Below, in pieces: positions 3,560 through 62,533 of a stretch of 64,000 bases of DNA. Made by a program: the position numbers and the translations under genes. Origin of the DNA: Candidatus Roseilinea sp. (GTDB lineage Bacteria; Chloroflexota; Anaerolineae; J036; Brachytrichaceae); NCBI GenBank assembly GCA_026003755.1, contig BPHV01000001.1, positions 904,393-968,392 on the forward strand, read 5' to 3'. The number at the start of each line of letters is the position of its first letter. The stretch's first letter is position 1. Under the pieces are notes generated by a model. It was given only the letters and a program-made list of their open reading frames with translations. It was not told the origin of the DNA and did not search any database.

Positions 3560-4390
3560 TCACCGCATTCGCCGATAGATGAACTCTTCAGACGGATAAG
3601 CCGGCCCAGCGGCGACTTGTGATGCAGCCGCCGCATCCACCATCCAGAATAACTTGCCGCGGGTCGGCGCGATAAGCTGCGCAGGCAGCGCTTGCGGCTG
3701 GTATTCGCCCAGCAGCACGCGCCGCAGCGTCCCTGCCTTGCTCGCCCCGCTCACCATGAAGCACACCACATCCGCAGCATTGATCAACGGCGGCGTGAAC
3801 GTGATGCGCGCTGGGACGTTCGCCTGGGGCACGACCTGCGACGCGACGAGCCGCGACCGTTCCGCCAGCGCCGGCGTGTGGGGGAAGAGCGAGGCAGTAT
3901 GACCGTCATCGCCCATGCCTAGCAGGATCAGGTCAAAGGTTGGCCGCGCAGGATCGGCAACGGCAGCGACCCTCGACCGGATCTCGGCCTCGTATTGCTC
4001 AGCCGCGCCTGCCAAGCCAAGTTCGGTCTGCACGCGATGCACGTTCTCCGGCGGAATAGGCACATGAGCGATCAGCGCATCGTATGCCAGATTGTAGTTG
4101 CTGTCTGGGTGATCATGCGGCACCGCGCGCTCGTCGCTCCACCACAGATGCACGCGCTGCCAATCGAGCTGGTCTGCGTAGGGTGGGCCGGATAGGCGAC
4201 GATACAGCGCCTTTGGCGTGCTGCCGCCGCTCAGGGCGAGATGGCAGGCGCTGCGTCGCTCAATCGCTTTGCGCCCCCAGAAGACCACCGCCTTAGCCGC
4301 TAGTTCGGCCATCGCCTCCGGCGTCGGCTCGACCTGCAGATAGTAGGTGCCATCGTCGTTCATGACGATGACGAAGGGCGCGCCGGACAT
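3560..4390 (-). CDS. pgl: 6-phosphogluconolactonase
   Basis: This 276-residue protein hydrolyses 6-phosphoglucono-delta-lactone, the second step of the oxidative pentose phosphate pathway. It belongs to the NagB/DevB family. Landmarks are SGGSTP (54-59), WSDER (84-88) and GMGDDGHTASLFP (158-170), the last holding the catalytic His. The chosen ATG at 4390 shares one base with the zwf stop codon (TGATG), the usual form of translational coupling. An in-frame GTG 15 bases upstream lies inside zwf and is less likely. Length is normal for the family. Confidence 0.95.
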   Translation of the reverse strand: MSGAPFVIVMNDDGTYYLQVEPTPEAMAELAAKAVVFWGRKAIERRSACHLALSGGSTPKALYRRLSGPPYADQLDWQRVHLWWSDERAVPHDHPDSNYNLAYDALIAHVPIPPENVHRVQTELGLAGAAEQYEAEIRSRVAAVADPARPTFDLILLGMGDDGHTASLFPHTPALAERSRLVASQVVPQANVPARITFTPPLINAADVVCFMVSGASKAGTLRRVLLGEYQPQALPAQLIAPTRGKLFWMVDAAAASQVAAGPAYPSEEFIYRRMR

Positions 4391-5892
4391 CACAGCACAT
4401 GCCACTTGCGCCCGTCGGCGGCGAGGAAATCGTCAGCTTCCTTTGGCCCCCACGATCCCGAGCGATATAGCTCGATGAACGAGCCGCCGCCTGCCTCCCA
4501 GCGCTCAATCACCGGCGTGATGAGCGCCCACGACGCCTCAACCTCATCGCTGCGGGTGAACAAGGTCGAATCGCCCAGCATCGCATCGAGGATCAAGCGC
4601 TCGTAGGCCTCTGGCGCCGCAGTCTTGAATGTGCTGCCGTAGTTGAAGTCCATCACCACCGTCTGGATGTTGTCGCCGCTGCCGGGCACCTTCGCGCCAA
4701 ACCGGAGCGAAATGCCCTCATGCGGTTGGATGTTCATGACCAGCAGGTTAGGCTCGATGGCGCGGGCGATGGTCTCTTTGAAGAGCAGCAGGGGCGGCAT
4801 CTTGAATTGGATGACGATCTCGGTCAGGCGCTTGGCCATGCGCTTGCCGCTGCGGATGTAGAAGGGGACGCCGGCCCAGCGCCAGTTGTCCACAAACAGC
4901 TTCATCGCCAGATAGGTCTCGGTGGTGGAATCGGGCGCCACACCCTCTTCTTGTGTGTAGCCAGGCACGAGCTGACCGTCTATCTTGCCGGGGCCATACT
5001 GTCCGCGCACCGTGCCATCGCCGCGCGATGTATCCACGCGCAGCGCCTTGAGCACTTTCACCTTTTCGTTGCGCACGGCGTCGGCGCTGAACTCCGCCGG
5101 CGGCTCCATCGCCGTCAACGCCAGCAGTTGCAGCAGATGATTCTGAACAATATCGCGGATGACCCCGGCTTTTTCGTAATACGAGCCGCGATTGCCGATG
5201 CCGATGCTTTCGGCTACGGTGATCTGCACGTTATCAACGTAGCGCCGATCCCAGATCGGCTCGAAGATGCCGTTGGCGAAGCGGAAGACGAAGATATTCT
5301 GAACCGTCTCCTTGCCCAGGTAGTGGTCAATGCGATAAACCTGCTCCTCGCGAAAGAAACGATGCACGTGCGCGTTTAACTCGCGCGCCGATTGCAGGTC
5401 GTGGCCGAACGGCTTCTCGATGATGATGCGCGACCAGTGGTGATCGCTGCCGGCGGCGCCGGTGCACAGCACACTACCGACGTTCTGGATAATGATGGGA
5501 TACACCTCCGGCGGCGTCGCGAGGTAGAACAAGCGATTCGCGCCGCTGCCGTGCGCTCGCTCAATCGCTTCCAGCCGCTTACACAGCACCTCGTAATCGG
5601 CCGCTGCGCCGTAGTCGCCCTGCTGATAGTGCAGACTCCGGGCAAATTTCTCCCAAATCGTCTCGTTGATCGGCTTTGAGCGGGCAAACTCCTCACACGC
5701 GGCGCGCATCTCCTCGCGGAATGATTCGTTGGTCTTCGCCTTGCGCGCGAAGCCGATCATAGCGAATTCATCAGGCAGCAACCCATCGCACATCAGGCTG
5801 TAGAGCGCCGGGATGAGCTTGCGCTGCGTCAAGTCCCCCGAGGCGCCAAAGATAACCAGGATGCACGGTTCGGGTCTCTTGGAAGGGTTCAT
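4390..5892 (-). CDS. zwf: Glucose-6-phosphate 1-dehydrogenase
   Basis: This 500-residue enzyme oxidises glucose-6-phosphate with NAD(P)+, the entry step of the oxidative pentose phosphate pathway. The N-terminal GASGDLTQRK (16-25) is the nucleotide-binding signature. EKPFG (159-163) and RIDHYLGKE (187-195) are the substrate-binding and catalytic segments, including the active-site His and Lys. The ATG at 5892 gives the normal family length. The reading frame continues 25 codons upstream, but that part runs through an intergenic heptamer array and is not conserved. It is coupled to pgl and follows gnd on the same strand. Confidence 0.96.
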   Translation of the reverse strand: MNPSKRPEPCILVIFGASGDLTQRKLIPALYSLMCDGLLPDEFAMIGFARKAKTNESFREEMRAACEEFARSKPINETIWEKFARSLHYQQGDYGAAADYEVLCKRLEAIERAHGSGANRLFYLATPPEVYPIIIQNVGSVLCTGAAGSDHHWSRIIIEKPFGHDLQSARELNAHVHRFFREEQVYRIDHYLGKETVQNIFVFRFANGIFEPIWDRRYVDNVQITVAESIGIGNRGSYYEKAGVIRDIVQNHLLQLLALTAMEPPAEFSADAVRNEKVKVLKALRVDTSRGDGTVRGQYGPGKIDGQLVPGYTQEEGVAPDSTTETYLAMKLFVDNWRWAGVPFYIRSGKRMAKRLTEIVIQFKMPPLLLFKETIARAIEPNLLVMNIQPHEGISLRFGAKVPGSGDNIQTVVMDFNYGSTFKTAAPEAYERLILDAMLGDSTLFTRSDEVEASWALITPVIERWEAGGGSFIELYRSGSWGPKEADDFLAADGRKWHVL

Positions 5893-32929: not shown

Positions 32930-33855
32930 TTCTCGTCACAGGATCAACGGGCTGCATCGGTCGAGCCGTCGTCGAACGCCTGGTCTCCTCGGGGCACCAG
33001 GTCAAGTGTTTGTTTCACTGGGGTAACGAACACCCCTGCCCCCGTCGCGTGGTCATCACCGGCGGCGACGTGCGCAACGAAGACTCGATCTATGAGGCGA
33101 TCACCGACGGCGGCGCATGCGACACCGTTGTGCATCTGGCGTACTTGCGCCGCGAGACTCCGGAGGATACGTTCGAGGATGTCAATATCACCGGCACCCA
33201 CAACGTGATCGCGGCGATGAAGCGGGCGAACATCAAGCGCCTGATCGTCGTCGGCTGCCTAGGCGCCGAGCCGCGCTCGCCCTATCCGCTGCAGCGCAGC
33301 CTGGGCAAGGCGGAGGAGATTGTGCGCGCGAGCGGGTTGAACTTCACCGTGCTCAAGTCGGCCGTGGTGTATGGCGAGGGCGACTGGCTCACATCGTGGC
33401 TGGCCGGCGTGGCAACCGACTTCCCATTTGTCATGCCGCTGCCGCACAGCGGCATGACAAAGTTGCAACCCATCTGGGTGGGCGACGTCGCCGCTTGTGT
33501 CGAGCGCTGCCTCAACACGCGCTCCACCTTCCGACAGGTGGTGCCGATCGGCGGTCCGCAAGCCCTCACGTTGGCCGACATCGCGCAGCTCACCATGAAG
33601 GCCACACAACGCCCGCGTCGCATCGTGCGCGTGCCGAGCGCGTTCACCCGCCACTTGGCCGCCTTTCTCGCGCGCTGTCGCCACGCGTTGACCGAGATGG
33701 AGATCGACGCGCTATCGTACAACCGCACCACCGAGATCGGCGGCGTGCACCGCGTGTTCGGTTTTGCGCCGGCCAAGATGCCGACCAAACTTGACTATCT
33801 CGATCCTCATCGCCCTCCTCCCCCCCTGCCGGTGCGCTTCAGATACCGCAGCTAG
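32926..33855 (+). CDS. NAD(P)-dependent epimerase/NDUFA9-like SDR
   Basis: This 309-residue atypical short-chain dehydrogenase starts with the Rossmann motif VTGSTGCIG (4-12). DVRNEDSIYEAI and VVHLAYLRRE follow, and then SPYPLQRSLGKAEEIVRASGLNFTVLKSAVVYGEGD. This pattern is typical of the NmrA/NDUFA9-like atypical SDR group, where the usual YxxxK is replaced by YxxxxSxxK-like spacing. Such proteins bind NADP and act as reductases, regulators or accessory factors. The substrate is unknown. Confidence 0.78.
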   Translation: MILVTGSTGCIGRAVVERLVSSGHQVKCLFHWGNEHPCPRRVVITGGDVRNEDSIYEAITDGGACDTVVHLAYLRRETPEDTFEDVNITGTHNVIAAMKRANIKRLIVVGCLGAEPRSPYPLQRSLGKAEEIVRASGLNFTVLKSAVVYGEGDWLTSWLAGVATDFPFVMPLPHSGMTKLQPIWVGDVAACVERCLNTRSTFRQVVPIGGPQALTLADIAQLTMKATQRPRRIVRVPSAFTRHLAAFLARCRHALTEMEIDALSYNRTTEIGGVHRVFGFAPAKMPTKLDYLDPHRPPPPLPVRFRYRS

Positions 33856-52530: not shown

Positions 52531-52566
52531 AAAAGCGGGCGTTCTTTAGAGGACGCCCGCTTTTTT
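52531..52566. terminator. Strong intrinsic terminator, usable in both directions
   Basis: AAAAGCGGGCGT (52531-52542) and ACGCCCGCTTTT (52553-52564) form a 12-pair stem with a 10-base loop, followed by a T-run. A-run and T-run flank the GC core symmetrically. It can therefore serve both the plus-strand lipoprotein/coiled-coil genes and the minus-strand operon ending at 52705. Confidence 0.9.
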
Positions 52567-56182: not shown

Positions 56183-56204
56183 GGCTGATCTTTCAACTAA
56201 TCAT

Positions 56205-56234
56205 CACCCATCCATCATGCATGATGGATGGGTG
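56205..56234. repeat. 30-bp perfect palindrome at the stop codon of an ABC ATPase gene
   Basis: CACCCATCCATCATG is followed directly by its exact reverse complement. The stop codon of the upstream ATPase gene lies inside it. RNA would form a long perfect hairpin with almost no loop between the two ATPase cistrons. Confidence 0.75.
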
Positions 56235-57309
56235 GTGGAACGGCCCGCTCGTCTCTCGGGTCGAAGAAGCGCGCCATAGATGGATTGAGATCGAAGCGCA
56301 CTGTCTCGCCGACGGTAAAGCGAGCGTCGCGGCTTACGCGCGCATGGATGGAATGATCGTCGCCCATCTCCAGCACCAGCATCGTATACGCGCCGTGCAA
56401 ATCCACCGAATATACGGTGGCAGCCAGTTGTCCGTTCGGGTGGATGTGCACCGCTTCCGGCCGAAAGCCGACGATGACGCCGCTGCCGGACAACCCACGG
56501 TTGAGCGCCTCCGACCAGTCGGGCGGCGGCGTATAGCGATTGCCGCCGGGCAACGTCGCGACGCCGTCGGCCCAATGGCCTTTCACCAAGTTCATCCCTG
56601 GGCTGCCGATGAACTGGGCCACGAACAGGTTGCTGGGCGTGTGATACACCTCGGCCGGTGTGCCGACTTGTTGCACCACGCCTTGGCTCATCACCACGAT
56701 GCGGTCAGCCATCGCCATCGCCTCGATCTGATCGTGCGTGACATAGACGGTGGTCGCGTTTTGCAGAATGTGCAGGCGCTTGATCTCCGAGCGCATCGTC
56801 TCGCGGAAGTCGGCGTCGAGCGCGCCAAGCGGCTCATCCATCAGGAAGCACGACGGCCGGCGCACCAAGGCGCGCGCCAGTGCGATGCGCTGTTGGTCAC
56901 CGCTGCTGAGCGCGCCGGGGCGCGATTTGAGCAGCGGCTCGATCTGCAACAGCTCGGCCACTTCCTTCACGCGCCGCTGGATATTCTCCCGGCGCTCACC
57001 TTCGGCTTGTAGGGGGAAGGCGATGTTCTCCCAGGCCGTCAAGTGCGGGTAGAGCGCAAAGAACTGGAAGACCATGGCCACGTCGCGCTGGCTCGGCTTT
57101 CGCCAGGTGACGTCTTGACCGTTGAGGATGATCCTGCCGCCACTTACGGTCTCCAGGCCGGCGATCATGCGCAGCGTCGTCGTTTTGCCACAGCCCGATG
57201 GGCCGAGCAGCGCCACGAATTCGCCGTTCTTGATGGACAGATCAAGCGGACGCACGGCATACTGCTCCCCGAATCGCTTCTCGACTTGCTGGAGTTCGAT
57301 GTCTGCCAT
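56215..57309 (-). CDS. ABC transporter ATPase, sugar type, second copy
   Basis: This 364-residue ATPase has Walker A GPSGCGKTTTL, Walker B CFLMDEPLGALDADF and the switch His in YVTHDQIEAM. The signature is LSSGDQQRIALARAL, where Ser replaces the usual second Gly. The C-terminal TOBE domain ends in VGFRPEAVHIHPNG and beyond. It probably pairs with the other ATPase. The last 10 residues are encoded within a palindrome and look like run-on coding. It lies downstream of the two permease genes across a heptamer array. Confidence 0.92.
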   Translation of the reverse strand: MADIELQQVEKRFGEQYAVRPLDLSIKNGEFVALLGPSGCGKTTTLRMIAGLETVSGGRIILNGQDVTWRKPSQRDVAMVFQFFALYPHLTAWENIAFPLQAEGERRENIQRRVKEVAELLQIEPLLKSRPGALSSGDQQRIALARALVRRPSCFLMDEPLGALDADFRETMRSEIKRLHILQNATTVYVTHDQIEAMAMADRIVVMSQGVVQQVGTPAEVYHTPSNLFVAQFIGSPGMNLVKGHWADGVATLPGGNRYTPPPDWSEALNRGLSGSGVIVGFRPEAVHIHPNGQLAATVYSVDLHGAYTMLVLEMGDDHSIHARVSRDARFTVGETVRFDLNPSMARFFDPRDERAVPPPIHHA

Positions 57310-57367: not shown

Positions 57368-58354
57368 TCACTTCCTCAGCGCACCGAACGTCACGCCGCG
57401 CAGCAAGTAGTCGCGCAAGGCAAACGTCACAATGATGACCGGAAACAAGAAGCCAAGCGTACCGGCTGCGATGGCCGACCACTCGATACCGCCGGTCCCC
57501 AGCACAGTCGGGATGCTGGGTGGGGCTGTGCGCGCGCGCTCGCTCGTCAGCATCAGCGCGAAGGCGTACTCGTTCCACGCGAAGATCAGGCAGAACACGA
57601 AGGTGGCGGCAATGCCGGTGATCGCCTGCGGCAACACCACCTTGCGGAAGGCTTGCAGCCGGCTGTAGCCGTCCACCAGCGCCGCCTCCTCATATTCGCG
57701 CGGGATCTCGTCAATGAAGCCCTTGAGCAACCACACCGCGAACGACAGGTTGAACACGGTGTAAAGCAGGATCAGTCCCAGATGGGTATCGTAGAGCCTG
57801 AGCTGCTGATACATCAGGAAGATGGGAATGGTGACGACCACCGGCGGCAGCATGCGCGTGCTGAGGATGAAGAAGAGCAAATCACCCTTGCCCGGCACAT
57901 GAAAGCGGCTGAAGGCGTAGGCCGCCAGCACGCCCAGCAACACCGAAAGCACGGTTGAGGCGCTGGCCACGATGACCGAGTTGATCAGCCGCTGACCATA
58001 CTGACTGGGCCCAGTGATGCGCTGGCCGCGCTCGGCCATGATGCGCTCGGCGAAGTTGAGGTCGGGGCGTTGCTTGTATTCCTCCATCATGCCCGGCGGC
58101 AACAGCACGCGCTTGGTGAGTAGGCTGATGAAGCCCTCGATCGTCGGCTCGAAGAATACCTTCGGCGGGATGGCGACGACATCGGGGCGCGACTTGAACG
58201 CGGCGGTCACCATCCAGAACACCGGGATCAGGCTGATCACGGCGTAGAGCACGACGACGGCGATGCGCAAGGCGCGTGTGAACTGATAACGCGCGCCCAC
58301 CTTGTCCACGCGCGTGGCATAGGTGATTGGAGCACTGGTTGTTGAAATGGCCAT
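57368..58354 (-). CDS. Sugar ABC transporter permease (UgpE/MalG-like)
   Basis: This 328-residue permease has about six membrane segments. The EAA loop EAALVDGYSRLQAFRKVVLPQAITGI (about 229-254) contacts the ATPase. A long N-terminal external loop (about 75-135) is larger than in MalG. With the upstream permease it forms the transmembrane channel of a CUT1-type sugar importer. Its stop is next to a period-7 array; the ribosome site and start look normal. Confidence 0.92.
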   Translation of the reverse strand: MAISTTSAPITYATRVDKVGARYQFTRALRIAVVVLYAVISLIPVFWMVTAAFKSRPDVVAIPPKVFFEPTIEGFISLLTKRVLLPPGMMEEYKQRPDLNFAERIMAERGQRITGPSQYGQRLINSVIVASASTVLSVLLGVLAAYAFSRFHVPGKGDLLFFILSTRMLPPVVVTIPIFLMYQQLRLYDTHLGLILLYTVFNLSFAVWLLKGFIDEIPREYEEAALVDGYSRLQAFRKVVLPQAITGIAATFVFCLIFAWNEYAFALMLTSERARTAPPSIPTVLGTGGIEWSAIAAGTLGFLFPVIIVTFALRDYLLRGVTFGALRK

Positions 58355-58399: not shown

Positions 58400-58420
58400 T
58401 TGACGATTGACCATTAAATC
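58400..58420 (+). repeat. Tandem heptamer repeat, TTGACGA type
   Basis: TTGACGA, TTGACCA and TTAAATC follow in 7-base register between the two permease genes. A partial inverted copy (ATCGTCAA near 58370) lies about 30 bases upstream, so RNA could fold into a stem. Confidence 0.4.
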
Positions 58421-59345
58421 AATGATTCTCTCCACGGATGCGGTTCAGCGAGCGGACATACAGGTTGCTGACGGCGATGACGATGACCAAGATGATGTAG
58501 GCCAGCGCGCTGGACTCGCCGGTGGTGAAGCGCGTGAAGGCGGCGCGATATAGGTGCACGGCGATCAACTCGGTCGCATCGCCCGGCCCGCCGCCGGTCA
58601 GGCCCATCACCAGGTCAAAAGTCTTGAACGCCTCGATGGTGCGGAACAAGATTGCGATCAGCAACAGCGGCGCCACTTGTGGCAGCGTGATGCGCCAGAA
58701 CTGGAACCATGGGCTGGCGCGATCTATCGCCGCCGCTTCGTACAGGTAATCGGGAATCGCTTTCAGCCCGGATAGGCACAAGAGCATGACAAACGGGCTC
58801 CACATCCACACGTCCACAATGATGATGGCCCACAATGCACGGCTGGCCTCACCCAGCCAATCCGGGCCGGAATTCGGCACGCTGTAGCCGATCAGGTAGT
58901 TGAAGATGCCGAAGGCCGGGTTGTAGATCAGCTTCCAGAACAGGCCGATGACGACCGGCGACATCATGATCGGGATCAGGATGAGCGTGGTAATCAGGCC
59001 GCTGCCCTTGAAGCGCTCGCGCAGGAACAGCGCCAAGCCAAAGCCGACGATCGCCTGCAGCGCCACCGTGGTCACGACGTAGCGGCCGGTCAGCGTGAAA
59101 TACTGCCAGATGCGCGGGTCGCTGAGGAGTTTGTTGTAATTTTGCAGCCCAACCCAGGCCGGCGGGACGTCGGGCTTGATCACCGAGAACTCGGTGAAGC
59201 TCAGGTACAAGCTATAGAACAGCGGAAAGATGTTCCACAGCACCAGCAGGATGATGGTCGGCGCAATGAACAGCACCTGAATCTGCACATCGGTGAGTGA
59301 GCGCCGGCTGTGGACATGCGCGGGTTGAGTTCGAGTCAGTTGCAT
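58419..59345 (-). CDS. Sugar ABC transporter permease (UgpA/MalF-like)
   Basis: This 308-residue permease has six membrane segments and the EAA motif EAAAIDRASPWFQFWRITLPQVAPLL (about 211-236). The N-terminus begins VQIQVLFIAPTIILLVLWNIFPLFYSLYLSFTEF, typical of the CUT1 permease pair. It is the first permease gene after the binding-protein gene, separated from it by a palindromic repeat. It works with the downstream permease and two ATPases. Confidence 0.92.
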   Translation of the reverse strand: MQLTRTQPAHVHSRRSLTDVQIQVLFIAPTIILLVLWNIFPLFYSLYLSFTEFSVIKPDVPPAWVGLQNYNKLLSDPRIWQYFTLTGRYVVTTVALQAIVGFGLALFLRERFKGSGLITTLILIPIMMSPVVIGLFWKLIYNPAFGIFNYLIGYSVPNSGPDWLGEASRALWAIIIVDVWMWSPFVMLLCLSGLKAIPDYLYEAAAIDRASPWFQFWRITLPQVAPLLLIAILFRTIEAFKTFDLVMGLTGGGPGDATELIAVHLYRAAFTRFTTGESSALAYIILVIVIAVSNLYVRSLNRIRGENH

Positions 59346-59354
59346 CTCGTGGCG

Positions 59355-59390
59355 AAGAAACCAGGTTTCTTTGCAGAAACCTGGTTTCTT
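59355..59390. repeat. Palindromic REP-like element with two inverted GAAACC/GGTTTC units
   Basis: Two 16-17 base units, AGAAACCAGGTTTCTTT and AGAAACCTGGTTTCTTT, stand next to each other. Each is itself a palindrome around one central base, and each is the reverse complement of the other. It lies between the binding-protein gene and the first permease gene. Repeats of this kind are known from cyanobacterial genomes. Confidence 0.75.
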
Positions 59391-59419: not shown

Positions 59420-60790
59420 TTACTTCAGATAGCCGGCCTTCTTGAGGATCTCAGTGTGCTCGCGCGCGATGTTGTCGAGCGCTTCTTTGGCCGTGCCTTG
59501 GCCCTCGACGATGTACTTGCTCAGCTCGCGCTGCGAGACGACCAGCAGATCGCCGAACTCGGGGATGTTCCAGAAGTCCTTGACGAAGTTCATCGTCTCG
59601 GCGAACGCCGGGTTGTAGGGCGTGGCCTGCTTGAACGTGTCGGAGTTCAACACTTCGATGTTGCAGGTGTAGCCGCCGAGCGCCGCCCACTTCTCCTGCA
59701 CCGGCTTGCTGGCGAACCACTCGATGAAGTCCTTCGCTGCCTGTTGGCGCTCCGGGCTGATGTAGGCGTTCACGCTGATGCCCTGACCACCAAGCGAGGC
59801 ATACTGCGCGCCGCCGGGACCGGGCGGCGTGGAGAAGAAGCCGACTTTGTCGTGGTAGTTCGGATTGGTCTGCGGGTTCACCAACGCCGGGAAGAAGGCG
59901 AAGTAGTTCGTGATCATCGCGACCTGGCCGCTGATGAAGGCATCGTTCATCTCCTGGAAGAAGGCGTTGCTCAAACCCGGCGGCATGAACTTGGTGTATA
60001 GCTCGCGATACAACTCGAGGGCCTTTGCAGCGTTCTCGGTGTTCAACACGCCTTCGACCTCGAACTTGTCGTTCTTCCAGTCGGCGCCGAAGTTGAAGAT
60101 GAAATTCTGCGCGCCCATCGTGATCGCGTCGTAGTCCTTCTGCGTGTAGACCGCGATGCCGTATAGGTTCTTTTCGGGCCGGGTGAAGAACTCGGCGATG
60201 TCGCGCAACTGCAACAAGTCCTTCGGCACGTCGAGGTCATAGCCATACTTGGCTTTGAACGCTTCCTTCTCCGCCGGATCCTCGAACAGGTCCTTGCGAT
60301 AGGCCCAACCCAGCGCGTCGCCCTCGGTCGGGAAGGCCCAATACTTGCCGTTATAGGTGCCATAGTAGAGCAGCGTGGCCGGCGTGACCGTCTTGTCCAG
60401 GCCCTTCTCCTTCATGAAGTCGGTCAGGTCAAGGTAGTGCCCCTGCGTCGCCGCCTGGCCGAGCCATTGGCTGTCGCCGACGACCATGTCGTAGCCGGTG
60501 CCCTTGGCCGCCCACTCCGCCGTGACCTTGTTGTAGTAGGTGCCCCAAGGCTCCTGTACGACGTTGACTTTGATGCCCTTTTCCTTCTGGTAGTCATTGG
60601 CCAATTCCTGCAGATAGTTCGCCGGATCCCATTCCGCCCACCAGATGGTGAGTTCTGTGACCCCGCCGGCCGGAGCCTGCTCGGCGGGCGCCGCGGGTGC
60701 TGCGGGAGCCGACGGCGCAGCCGGCGCTGCGCAGCCAGCGATCAAAGCCGCTGTAAGTCCAAGGGCGAGTAATCCTGACTTCGTGGTCAT
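59420..60790 (-). CDS. Sugar ABC transporter substrate-binding lipoprotein
   Basis: This 456-residue lipoprotein begins at an ATG with AAGGAG ten bases upstream. The lipobox is LIAGC (Cys20), followed by an Ala/Pro-rich linker. The mature part is a CUT1 (UgpB/MalE-like, COG1653) binding protein. It opens with TELTIWWAEWDPANYLQELANDYQKEKGIKVNVVQ, with WAFPTEGDALGWAYRKDLFEDPAE and YISPERQQAAKDFIEWFASKPVQ further on. Aromatic residues suit a mono- or oligosaccharide pocket. It is the first transporter gene, 76 bases after the kinase gene, and faces the permeases across a REP-like repeat. Confidence 0.92.
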   Translation of the reverse strand: MTTKSGLLALGLTAALIAGCAAPAAPSAPAAPAAPAEQAPAGGVTELTIWWAEWDPANYLQELANDYQKEKGIKVNVVQEPWGTYYNKVTAEWAAKGTGYDMVVGDSQWLGQAATQGHYLDLTDFMKEKGLDKTVTPATLLYYGTYNGKYWAFPTEGDALGWAYRKDLFEDPAEKEAFKAKYGYDLDVPKDLLQLRDIAEFFTRPEKNLYGIAVYTQKDYDAITMGAQNFIFNFGADWKNDKFEVEGVLNTENAAKALELYRELYTKFMPPGLSNAFFQEMNDAFISGQVAMITNYFAFFPALVNPQTNPNYHDKVGFFSTPPGPGGAQYASLGGQGISVNAYISPERQQAAKDFIEWFASKPVQEKWAALGGYTCNIEVLNSDTFKQATPYNPAFAETMNFVKDFWNIPEFGDLLVVSQRELSKYIVEGQGTAKEALDNIAREHTEILKKAGYLK

Positions 60791-60866: not shown

Positions 60867-62399
60867 TCACTGCTCAAGCTGTGCGAAGATCGGTTTGAGC
60901 GCCGGATAGAGTTCGCGGAAGCGCGCATAGGCTTCGTCGTAACGACGCAATACGGTTGAGTCTTCGCTAGGCGACGTGCGCGACGTCACGCGGATCACGG
61001 CATCGCAAGCCTCGCGCGTATTGCGCCATAGGCCAATGCCCACACCGGCCAACAATGCTACGCCGAACGCCCCACCCTCCGTCGAGTTGACCAGGGTGAT
61101 GTCAGCCTGAAAGATGTCAGCCAGCATTTGCCGCCAGATTGCGCTGCGCGCTCCGCCGCCGGCTGCGCGCACCTCGTCCACGTGCAGCCCCAGCTCGCGC
61201 ATGAGCTCGATGGAGTCGCGCAGGCCGAAGCTGATGCCCTCGACCACTGCCCGCGCCAGATGCGCCTGGGTGTGACGCAGCGTCAGGCCGACGAACGCCC
61301 CGCGCGCCAGCGGGTCGCGGTGGGGGGTGCGTTCACCTGTGAGATAGGGCAAAAACATCAACCCTTCTGCGCCGATCGGGACCTCGGCAGCGCTCTGCAT
61401 CAACAGGTCATAGGGGTCGGCTGGGCTGGGTGGTCGTGTGACCAATTGCGGATGGCCGAGTGCGATCACGTCGCGCTGCCAGCGCAGGCTGCCGCCGGCG
61501 GAGAGCATCACGCCCATGAAGAACCAGGTCTCTGGCACGGCGTGGCAAAACACCTCCACCGCGGTGTCGCGGACAGGAGGATACCGCTCGACCGAAGCAA
61601 ACACCACGCCCGAGGTGCCCAGCGTGACGTTAACGATGCCCTCACGCACTGAACCCAGCCCGACGGCGGCGGCCGGTTGGTCGCCGCTGCCGCCGACGAT
61701 GGGCGTGCCGGCAGCCAAGCCGGTCTCACGCGCCGCCGTCTCGCTCACCTGTGCCGTCGGCTCGTGCGACTCAACGCACAACGGCAGCCACTCGCGGGGA
61801 ATGTCCAACAAAGCCAACATCTCATCCGACCAGCGGCGATGCCGCACGTCGAGCAGGCCCATACCGGTAGCGTCGCCAACCTCGGTGGCGAATTCGCCGC
61901 TCAGCTTGTAGCGGATGTAGTCTTTGGGCAACAGCACGTGCGCCACGTGCGCGTAGACATCCGGCTCGTGCTCGCGCACCCAGAGCAGCTTCGGCGCAGT
62001 GTAACTGGTCGCGGGGAGATTGGCGACGAGTTCGCGGGTGCGCATCGGGCCGCCGGCGCGTCGCACGATCTCGTCGCACTGCGCCGCGGTGCGCTGATCG
62101 TTCCACAAGATGGCCGGCCGCAGCACGTTGCCCGCGCGGTCAAGCAGGGTCAGCCCGTGCATCTGGCCGCTCAGGCCGATGCTGCGCACATCATGCCCCG
62201 AAGCGCCGGCCTTCGCCAGCACCTGGCGAATTGCCTCGCTCGTTCCGCGCCACCAGTCAGCGGGGTCTTGTTCACTCCACAGCGGTCGGGGGGTGTAAAG
62301 CGGATATTCCACCGTCGCGCTGGCCAGCGTCTCGCCGTTTTCGTTGATGAGCAATGCTTTGACGGCAGTGGTGCCGAGGTCAATGCCAAGCAGTGTCAT
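60867..62399 (-). CDS. xylB: FGGY carbohydrate kinase, xylulokinase type
   Basis: This 510-residue kinase begins GIDLGTTAVKALLINENGE (phosphate-1 motif). GLSGQMHGLTLLD and AILWNDQRT are typical of xylulokinase. LLPKDYIRYKLSGEFATEVGDATGMGLLDV and the C-terminal AAGGGARSAIWRQMLADIF motif follow. The ATG at 62399 has GGGAG upstream and replaces a non-conserved 44-codon extension. The expected reaction is D-xylulose to xylulose-5-phosphate. No xylose isomerase is in the window, and the downstream aldolase/dehydrogenase suggests a different ketose is possible. It heads the transporter operon. Confidence 0.88.
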   Translation of the reverse strand: MTLLGIDLGTTAVKALLINENGETLASATVEYPLYTPRPLWSEQDPADWWRGTSEAIRQVLAKAGASGHDVRSIGLSGQMHGLTLLDRAGNVLRPAILWNDQRTAAQCDEIVRRAGGPMRTRELVANLPATSYTAPKLLWVREHEPDVYAHVAHVLLPKDYIRYKLSGEFATEVGDATGMGLLDVRHRRWSDEMLALLDIPREWLPLCVESHEPTAQVSETAARETGLAAGTPIVGGSGDQPAAAVGLGSVREGIVNVTLGTSGVVFASVERYPPVRDTAVEVFCHAVPETWFFMGVMLSAGGSLRWQRDVIALGHPQLVTRPPSPADPYDLLMQSAAEVPIGAEGLMFLPYLTGERTPHRDPLARGAFVGLTLRHTQAHLARAVVEGISFGLRDSIELMRELGLHVDEVRAAGGGARSAIWRQMLADIFQADITLVNSTEGGAFGVALLAGVGIGLWRNTREACDAVIRVTSRTSPSEDSTVLRRYDEAYARFRELYPALKPIFAQLEQ

Positions 62400-62521
62400 G
62401 GTATGTCGCTCCCTGAGCGGGGATTCTAGCCCCGCTTTAACCTGGGCGAGACGCCAAAGCGAGAGCGCGCCAGGTCGCAGCGGGCAGGCGTGGTGTGCGC
62501 CCCCTTGGGAGGTGCAACCGT

Positions 62522-62533
62522 GATTGCGCAATC
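62522..62533. promoter_or_regulatory. LacI-type palindrome upstream of the kinase/transporter operon
   Basis: GATTGCGCAATC is a perfect 12-bp palindrome with a central CG, as in operators of the LacI family. It lies 123 bases upstream of the kinase start. A second half-site, ATTGCGC, follows at 62541-62547. No regulator gene of that family is in the window. Confidence 0.4.

Follow-up and report, generated by a model that had tools for sequence, protein, structure and literature searches.

A dispersed double-palindrome hairpin between solute-binding protein and permease genes of Candidatus Roseilinea, a candidate incomplete terminator and 3'-end protector

Introduction

In E. coli, a REP, itself a dispersed palindrome, separates the binding-protein gene malE from the permease gene malF in a sugar ABC operon; it protects the end of the malE transcript and helps to make more binding protein than permease. 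The REPs tagged by GTAG or CGTC are palindromes of 20–40 bp, mostly intergenic and located between tandem or convergent genes; cyanobacteria and Chloroflexi are among the groups in which GTAG families have been reported (Di Nocera et al. 2013, PMC3733652, available text). In Ruminiclostridium, stem-loops after solute-binding protein (SBP) genes terminate 20.7–96.1% of transcripts and influence how stable the SBP mRNA is, as described in the available text of a 2022 report (PMC9045158). According to the same text, paired U tracts matter for stem-loop termination, a stem-loop stripped of its U tract gave no termination, and in E. coli at least 15 SBP genes are followed by a stem-loop (PMC9045158).

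The hairpin described here lies in a 64,000-nucleotide stretch of the genome of Candidatus Roseilinea sp. (the window). Like the malE-malF REP, it is a dispersed palindrome at the same type of junction; it differs in having another sequence, no GTAG tag and no regular RAYT partner. It shares size and intergenic placement with the GTAG/CGTC REPs, as far as the available text describes them (PMC3733652), but is untagged, and its arms are themselves palindromes. The likeness to the Ruminiclostridium stem-loops, as presented in the accessible part of that report (PMC9045158), lies in a long stable stem-loop between the SBP and translocator genes and in a putative weak U tract paired with the 5' side. 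Those stem-loops are not described there as a dispersed repeat, whereas here a single repeat family occupies several SBP slots, and orthologous slots often hold hairpins of unrelated sequence; termination was measured there, and here we infer it from sequence. The regulatory mechanism is already known, and the use of a double-palindrome repeat for it appears to be new.

The hairpin and its operon

The first-pass annotation had proposed a 36-base element of two inverted units between a binding-protein gene and a permease gene, and both points held. The element is a perfect 16-bp inverted repeat at an SBP_bac_1/BPD_transp_1 junction, with the SBP stop codon 29 nt before it and the permease ATG 9 nt after it. 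As in SBP-downstream internal terminators, a stable stem-loop stands between the SBP stop and the translocator genes. The features are as follows:

59355-59390, minus strand: double-palindrome hairpin (arms 59355-59370 and 59375-59390; loop 59371-59374), 53.8 bits with covariance model R1
59357-59369: inner palindrome 1, GAAACCAGGTTTC, 13 nt, inside the first arm
59376-59388: inner palindrome 2, GAAACCTGGTTTC, 13 nt, inside the second arm
59355-59360, minus strand: 3' foot of the hairpin, UUUCUU in the mRNA, pairing with AAGAAA of the 5' arm; a putative paired U-rich tract of a weak terminator, judged from the sequence and from comparison with the available text of PMC9045158
59420-60790, minus strand: solute-binding lipoprotein gene (SBP_bac_1); the ORF call extends to 60928, and the start at 60790 is preferred from the lipobox
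58419-59345, minus strand: first permease gene (BPD_transp_1, domain match)
57368-58354, minus strand: second permease gene (BPD_transp_1, domain match)
56215-57309, minus strand: MalK-type ATPase gene (ABC_tran, TOBE_2 and OB_MalK, domain match)
60867-62531, minus strand: FGGY-family sugar kinase gene, upstream of the SBP gene

This gene set is probably a sugar ABC-importer operon. The element reads AAGAAACCAGGTTTCT-TTGC-AGAAACCTGGTTTCTT, with two 16-nt arms that are 100% complementary and a 4-nt loop, which on the mRNA strand is GCAA, a GNRA-type tetraloop. RNA folding gives one 16-bp hairpin (z = −4.4 and −4.6 for the two strands), and none of 200 shuffles folded as well. A search of the window for GAAACCNGGTTTC with up to two mismatches returned the two inner palindromes as its only matches. 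Two such loose matches alone are not rare (34 of 100 shuffles); the pair in the element is exact, adjacent and mutually complementary. The element had also been called the only AT-rich island of its kind. A and T do account for 22 of its 36 bases, in a window of 64% GC, but it is not the only such spot, as 0.25% of the 36-nt stretches of the window are equally AT-rich. The heptamer repeats claimed for this DNA were not recovered as tandem arrays in the window, a search for which gave no period-7 row. A scan of the window at Rfam gathering scores gave no matches.

A dispersed double palindrome

The element belongs to a dispersed 33–36-bp double palindrome, AGAAACCnGGTTTCT-TNA-AGAAACCnGGTTTCT, in which two mutually complementary AGAAACCnGGTTTCT arms stand 3–4 nt apart; the window copy is exact in both arms. 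The repeat is present in 8 of the 9 genomes of the host genus and also occurs in other members of the Anaerolineae and in numerous filamentous cyanobacteria, and a match to the arm pattern was found in 22 of the 41 genomes searched, own genome included. In the latter (3.34 Mb, 5 contigs), AGAAACCNGGTTTCT occurs in 7 places with at most one mismatch (control 0) and in 17 with at most two (control 5). Covariance model R1, built from 49 copies, gave 18 both-strand matches there, or approximately 9 elements, which excludes a single-copy sequence. The congeners gave 0 to 67 matches, approximately 0 to 33 elements per genome. Genome G021 carries many near-identical copies.

The description of the palindrome as a cyanobacterial type was borne out. 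The exact 33-bp pattern was found in at least 119 stretches in a scan of species genomes; among the 80 loci listed, 70 bear cyanobacterial titles, 6 Chloroflexota or Anaerolineae titles, 1 Pirellulaceae and 3 only 'bacterium', and as counts among the matches listed these do not rank the phyla by repeat number. The 33-bp double palindrome of filamentous cyanobacteria matches the window family in sequence and architecture (exact pattern). The host genus is placed within the Anaerolineae by its EttA-like protein, which in a congener is 97% identical to an Anaerolineae-titled record and 96% identical to that of the own genome. Because the host is itself in the Anaerolineae, the repeat is common to two phyla, Chloroflexota and cyanobacteria. 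None of these sequences shows a cyanobacterial origin for it. Three copies with 4-nt loops were also seen on a planctomycete contig (L134, a Pirellulaceae record, 3876-5382). Plasmid records gave one weak match, in Paenisporosarcina. A literature search with four exact 14-base arm strings, which left most subscription papers outside its reach, did not find the repeat, and it may be described elsewhere; the literature on REPs in Chloroflexi and on cyanobacterial repeats gave no recognised match and no name for it.

The loop is 3 nt long in 174 and 4 nt in 18 of 201 distinct copies. The free central bases of arms 1 and 2 are complementary in 124 of the 136 exact-pattern copies, with 71 expected from base frequencies. 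Across 49 aligned copies, 47 cells were changed on both sides of the long hairpin, a number reached in none of 500 shuffles; because some of these copies came from a search in which most arm bases are fixed, the counts depend on the remaining ones. Two small hairpins per element were considered as the alternative fold and rejected, with 2 both-sides-changed cells. As covariation is far stronger for the long hairpin than for the two small ones, the long hairpin, with its arm-to-arm pairing, is the conserved structure of the repeat.

The inner pairing of each arm also holds, in 94.9% of cells, which would suit a DNA-level site, that is, an operator or nucleoid-protein site read as two 13-bp palindromes. 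We consider this very improbable. The base at the centre of arm 1 varies with the one at the centre of arm 2, a dependence that a pair of dimer sites would not need, and the copies avoid the divergent, promoter-bearing gaps (12 of 148 copies, compared with 131 of 627 random places).

The suggested membership among the REPs did not hold. GTAG lies within 8 nt of 7 of the 201 copies and CGTC within 8 nt of 12, the median for a tetramer being 12, and the repeat was accordingly rejected as a GTAG/CGTC REP. A REPIN/RAYT system was likewise rejected as a general link. Of 24 Y1_Tnp loci in relatives, 2 have copies nearby, both of them in genome G021; none of the 30 loci read in 14 other genomes has any, and two genomes with many copies (G003 and G009) have no Y1_Tnp match. 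In the broad sense the repeat is a REP-like extragenic palindrome, being dispersed, intergenic and scarce in divergent gaps. At one Y1_Tnp locus of G021, three copies were found within 0.8 kb around the gene. The ORF at this locus (L062, 1405-2190) is RAYT-like. Two copies lie downstream of it and one upstream, the latter followed by a T run, and the final portion of the gene is duplicated together with a repeat copy. This transposase is a possible source of the burst of copies in G021.

Genomic placement and retention

The copies lie mainly outside called ORFs (166 of 201, compared with 761 of 4020 random places), the ORFs being those of a simple caller and not an annotation. In the host genus, 60 loci with 67 elements, the best-scoring of approximately 145 elements, were analysed: 42 elements are in tandem gaps, 15 in convergent and 2 in divergent gaps, and the remaining 8 lie within called ORFs (6) or at the edge of a contig (2). 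The other junctions of the same loci comprise 132 tandem, 35 convergent and 42 divergent. A stop codon lies no more than 60 nt before the element in 48 of the 67. Further members are located 9 nt 3' of a tRNA-Ser gene (L251, 3054-3085) or of tRNA-Glu genes (L254, 3013-3045; L260, L286 and L295). This placement is the pattern of something that acts at transcript 3' ends. No empty sites of the repeat were found.

Beyond the tRNA-adjoining members the sequence is T-rich, as it would be for terminators. In three genomes a copy is located approximately 10 nt before the start of an ABC-F gene that we take from its sequence to be EttA-like (L247, 3061-3093; L252; L269), and the changes between these copies keep the pairing.

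At the window site the hairpin has been retained. At E of 1e-60 or better, 7 of the 14 genomes searched had a match to the permease; these 7 belong to the same genus, and each has the hairpin in the same place. Between two of these loci (L040 and L045), none of the 30 stem bases is changed, compared with 43 of 145 fourfold sites in the permease gene. A third (L044) has one stem change, which opens one pair. In the most distant copy (L046), 4 of the 30 stem bases are changed and a 15-bp stem is kept, one pair having gone from T-A to C-G. The bases flanking the hairpin, judged by eye, differ much more than the stem. The retention could partly reflect homogenisation among copies and not selection.

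Hairpins after SBP genes

When orthologous sites were merged by hand, the 67 genus elements represented approximately 36 sites, with cluster J, which turned out not to be one site, counted as separate sites. At 8 of them an SBP gene is directly upstream in the same direction:

The window, L256 and L265: SBP_bac_1
Site A: SBP_bac_6/8; site K: SBP_bac_8
Sites B and C: SBP_bac_5; site D: Bmp

The next gene encodes a permease or an ABC ATPase at 7 of the 8 (the L265 permease being a frame read by eye) and a beta-lactamase-family protein at site B. The 28 other sites have as neighbours aminotransferase, glutamine synthetase, peptidase and dehydrogenase genes, and some genes without a family; given these 28, the spread of the repeat is not driven by SBP use alone.

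Among 68 listed elements of five genomes, 19 follow a listed SBP_bac_1 or SBP_bac_5 domain at no more than 700 nt and none precedes one at that distance; orthologous sites and pairs of elements sharing a site are counted among the 19. Approximately 0.66 would be expected for each side, under a null that treats all genome places alike and is too low several-fold for an intergenic element.

The SBP loci of the genus were then compared irrespective of the repeat, using the best matches, up to 30 per search (59 of 60 analysed, 55 with a tandem next gene). In these 55, the 75 nt that follow the stop codon have a mean folding energy of −31.2 kcal/mol, compared with −18.1 kcal/mol at 56 other tandem junctions of the same loci. 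Near-perfect stems of at least 12 bp are present at 22 of 55 SBP-to-next-gene junctions and at none of 44 previous-gene-to-SBP junctions; with one locus per ortholog group, the counts are 9 of 23 after and 0 of 18 before the SBP gene. A z of −3 or lower was obtained at 32 of 55 junctions after and 2 of 44 before. The contrast was weaker in the two wider sets, at 14 of 20 versus 2 of 16 in the family set, which includes some loci of the window's own genus, and 11 of 28 versus 1 of 19 in the phylum set. Some SBP junctions have no strong hairpin, for example in the L342 group, where the genes overlap.

The SBP-to-next-gene junctions of the phylum thus often carry strong hairpins, many of unrelated sequence. 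In 43 pairs of orthologous junctions with hairpins of at least 11 bp, 20 pairs were alignable (p < 0.01) and 23 were not; examples of the latter are L304/L309, with SBPs 96.7% identical, and L329/L336 (90.9%). Because the hairpins at SBP junctions are of many unrelated sequences, the repeat is one occupant of a general hairpin slot. At three loci (L311, L315 and L319), the hairpin after an orthologous SBP gene is made of inverted GAATTGA heptamer repeats, and two orthologs of these loci (L317 and L323) have a different, GC-rich hairpin.

It could be that a selfish or neutral palindromic repeat has drifted into a short junction, and that its place between SBP and permease genes is meaningless. 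Its dispersal at 0 to approximately 33 copies per genome within one genus, the near-identical copies of G021 and the 28 sites away from SBP genes all fit this. It is contradicted by the 19 listed elements downstream and none upstream of SBP domains against the 0.66 expected, by a stem that is unchanged while fourfold sites diverge by 30%, and by the hairpins of other sequences that also occupy SBP junctions. We regard drift of this kind as quite unlikely.

The 36 SBP-junction hairpins of at least 11 bp have a median stem of 16 bp and lie a median of 18 nt from the stop codon and 11 nt from the next called start. These distances, and the 9 nt between the window hairpin and the ATG, would allow the hairpin to block or uncouple ribosome entry at the permease, and an effect on the start of permease translation is possible. 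As the explanation of the element, translational control is nonetheless unlikely, since there is no downstream start to be controlled where copies stand at convergent junctions or after tRNA genes.

Proposed function

The position and retention of the hairpin, together with the slot rule, suggest that it controls SBP relative to permease. Our preferred reading, to which we assign a probability of approximately 0.6, is that the element acts both as an incomplete terminator and as a 3'-end protector, raising SBP over permease. A copy of the dispersed double palindrome would have become fixed in the slot that separates the SBP stop from the permease start, and transcription would yield a 16-bp RNA hairpin at the junction. 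This hairpin would work as an incomplete intrinsic terminator, with its U-rich foot UUUCUU paired into the stem, and would also keep 3'-5' exonucleases from attacking the SBP message at its 3' end, the two effects acting together. The expected outcome is more SBP than permease from one promoter. The malE-malF-like tuning suggested by the first-pass annotation is in agreement with the position, the conservation and the genus-wide enrichment.

The repeat was rejected as a canonical terminator, since the pooled copies show no T run after the repeat and a terminator scan did not list the window copy. The window hairpin is followed by CGCC, without a free U tail. The loss of termination in a stem-loop stripped of its U tract, reported in the available text of PMC9045158, counts against it as a terminator. 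Because the U-rich foot is paired and there is no free U tail, partial termination and 3' protection are inseparable by sequence.

A hairpin that only protects, in the manner of the malE-malF REP and without termination, is possible, although we hold it to be doubtful. The operon mRNA would then be cut, or degraded from the permease end, the exonuclease would be stopped at the hairpin, and a stable SBP mRNA would be left. The perfect 16-bp stem, the GNRA-type loop and the missing U tail are in keeping with this, as are the SBP-junction hairpins of the genus, mostly without U tails (at least 5 T in the 8 nt after the stem in 3 of 36). Pure protection is less easily reconciled with the paired, U-rich foot of the repeat, a configuration that brings about termination in Clostridia (PMC9045158, available text), or with the family members 9 nt after tRNA genes with T-rich sequence beyond, where a termination role is plausible. 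By comparison with the accessible text of that report (PMC9045158), partial termination would be at least as likely as transcript protection alone.

More broadly, and tentatively, the ABC-importer operons of Chloroflexota may have a fixed post-SBP hairpin slot with exchangeable occupants, given unrelated hairpins after SBP orthologs that are 83–97% identical, and dispersed palindromes, the cyanobacteria-type repeat among them, may have been recruited repeatedly as ready-made, orientation-free terminator or stabiliser cassettes. The rule of a hairpin after the SBP gene, measured in Clostridia according to the available text of PMC9045158, is extended here to Chloroflexota, and our literature search returned no earlier report for the phylum. 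The orthologous slots of the genus, which hold the same, a changed or a quite different hairpin, offer a test bed, with many parallel cases in one genus, for a mobile-looking palindrome becoming a working part of gene regulation.

Other inverted repeats in the window

Three further inverted repeats were observed in the window. One, at 56202-56237, has two 18-nt arms, 94% complementary and without a loop, and spans the stop codon of the ATPase gene, where the operon ends. A perfect 15-bp inverted repeat with a 5-nt loop, TTTGTCATGCCGCTG, lies at 33427-33461 within an ORF from the simple caller. The third is a AAAAGCGGGCGTTCT/AGGACGCCCGCTTTT hairpin at 52531-52564, between convergent called ORFs, and looks like a bidirectional terminator.
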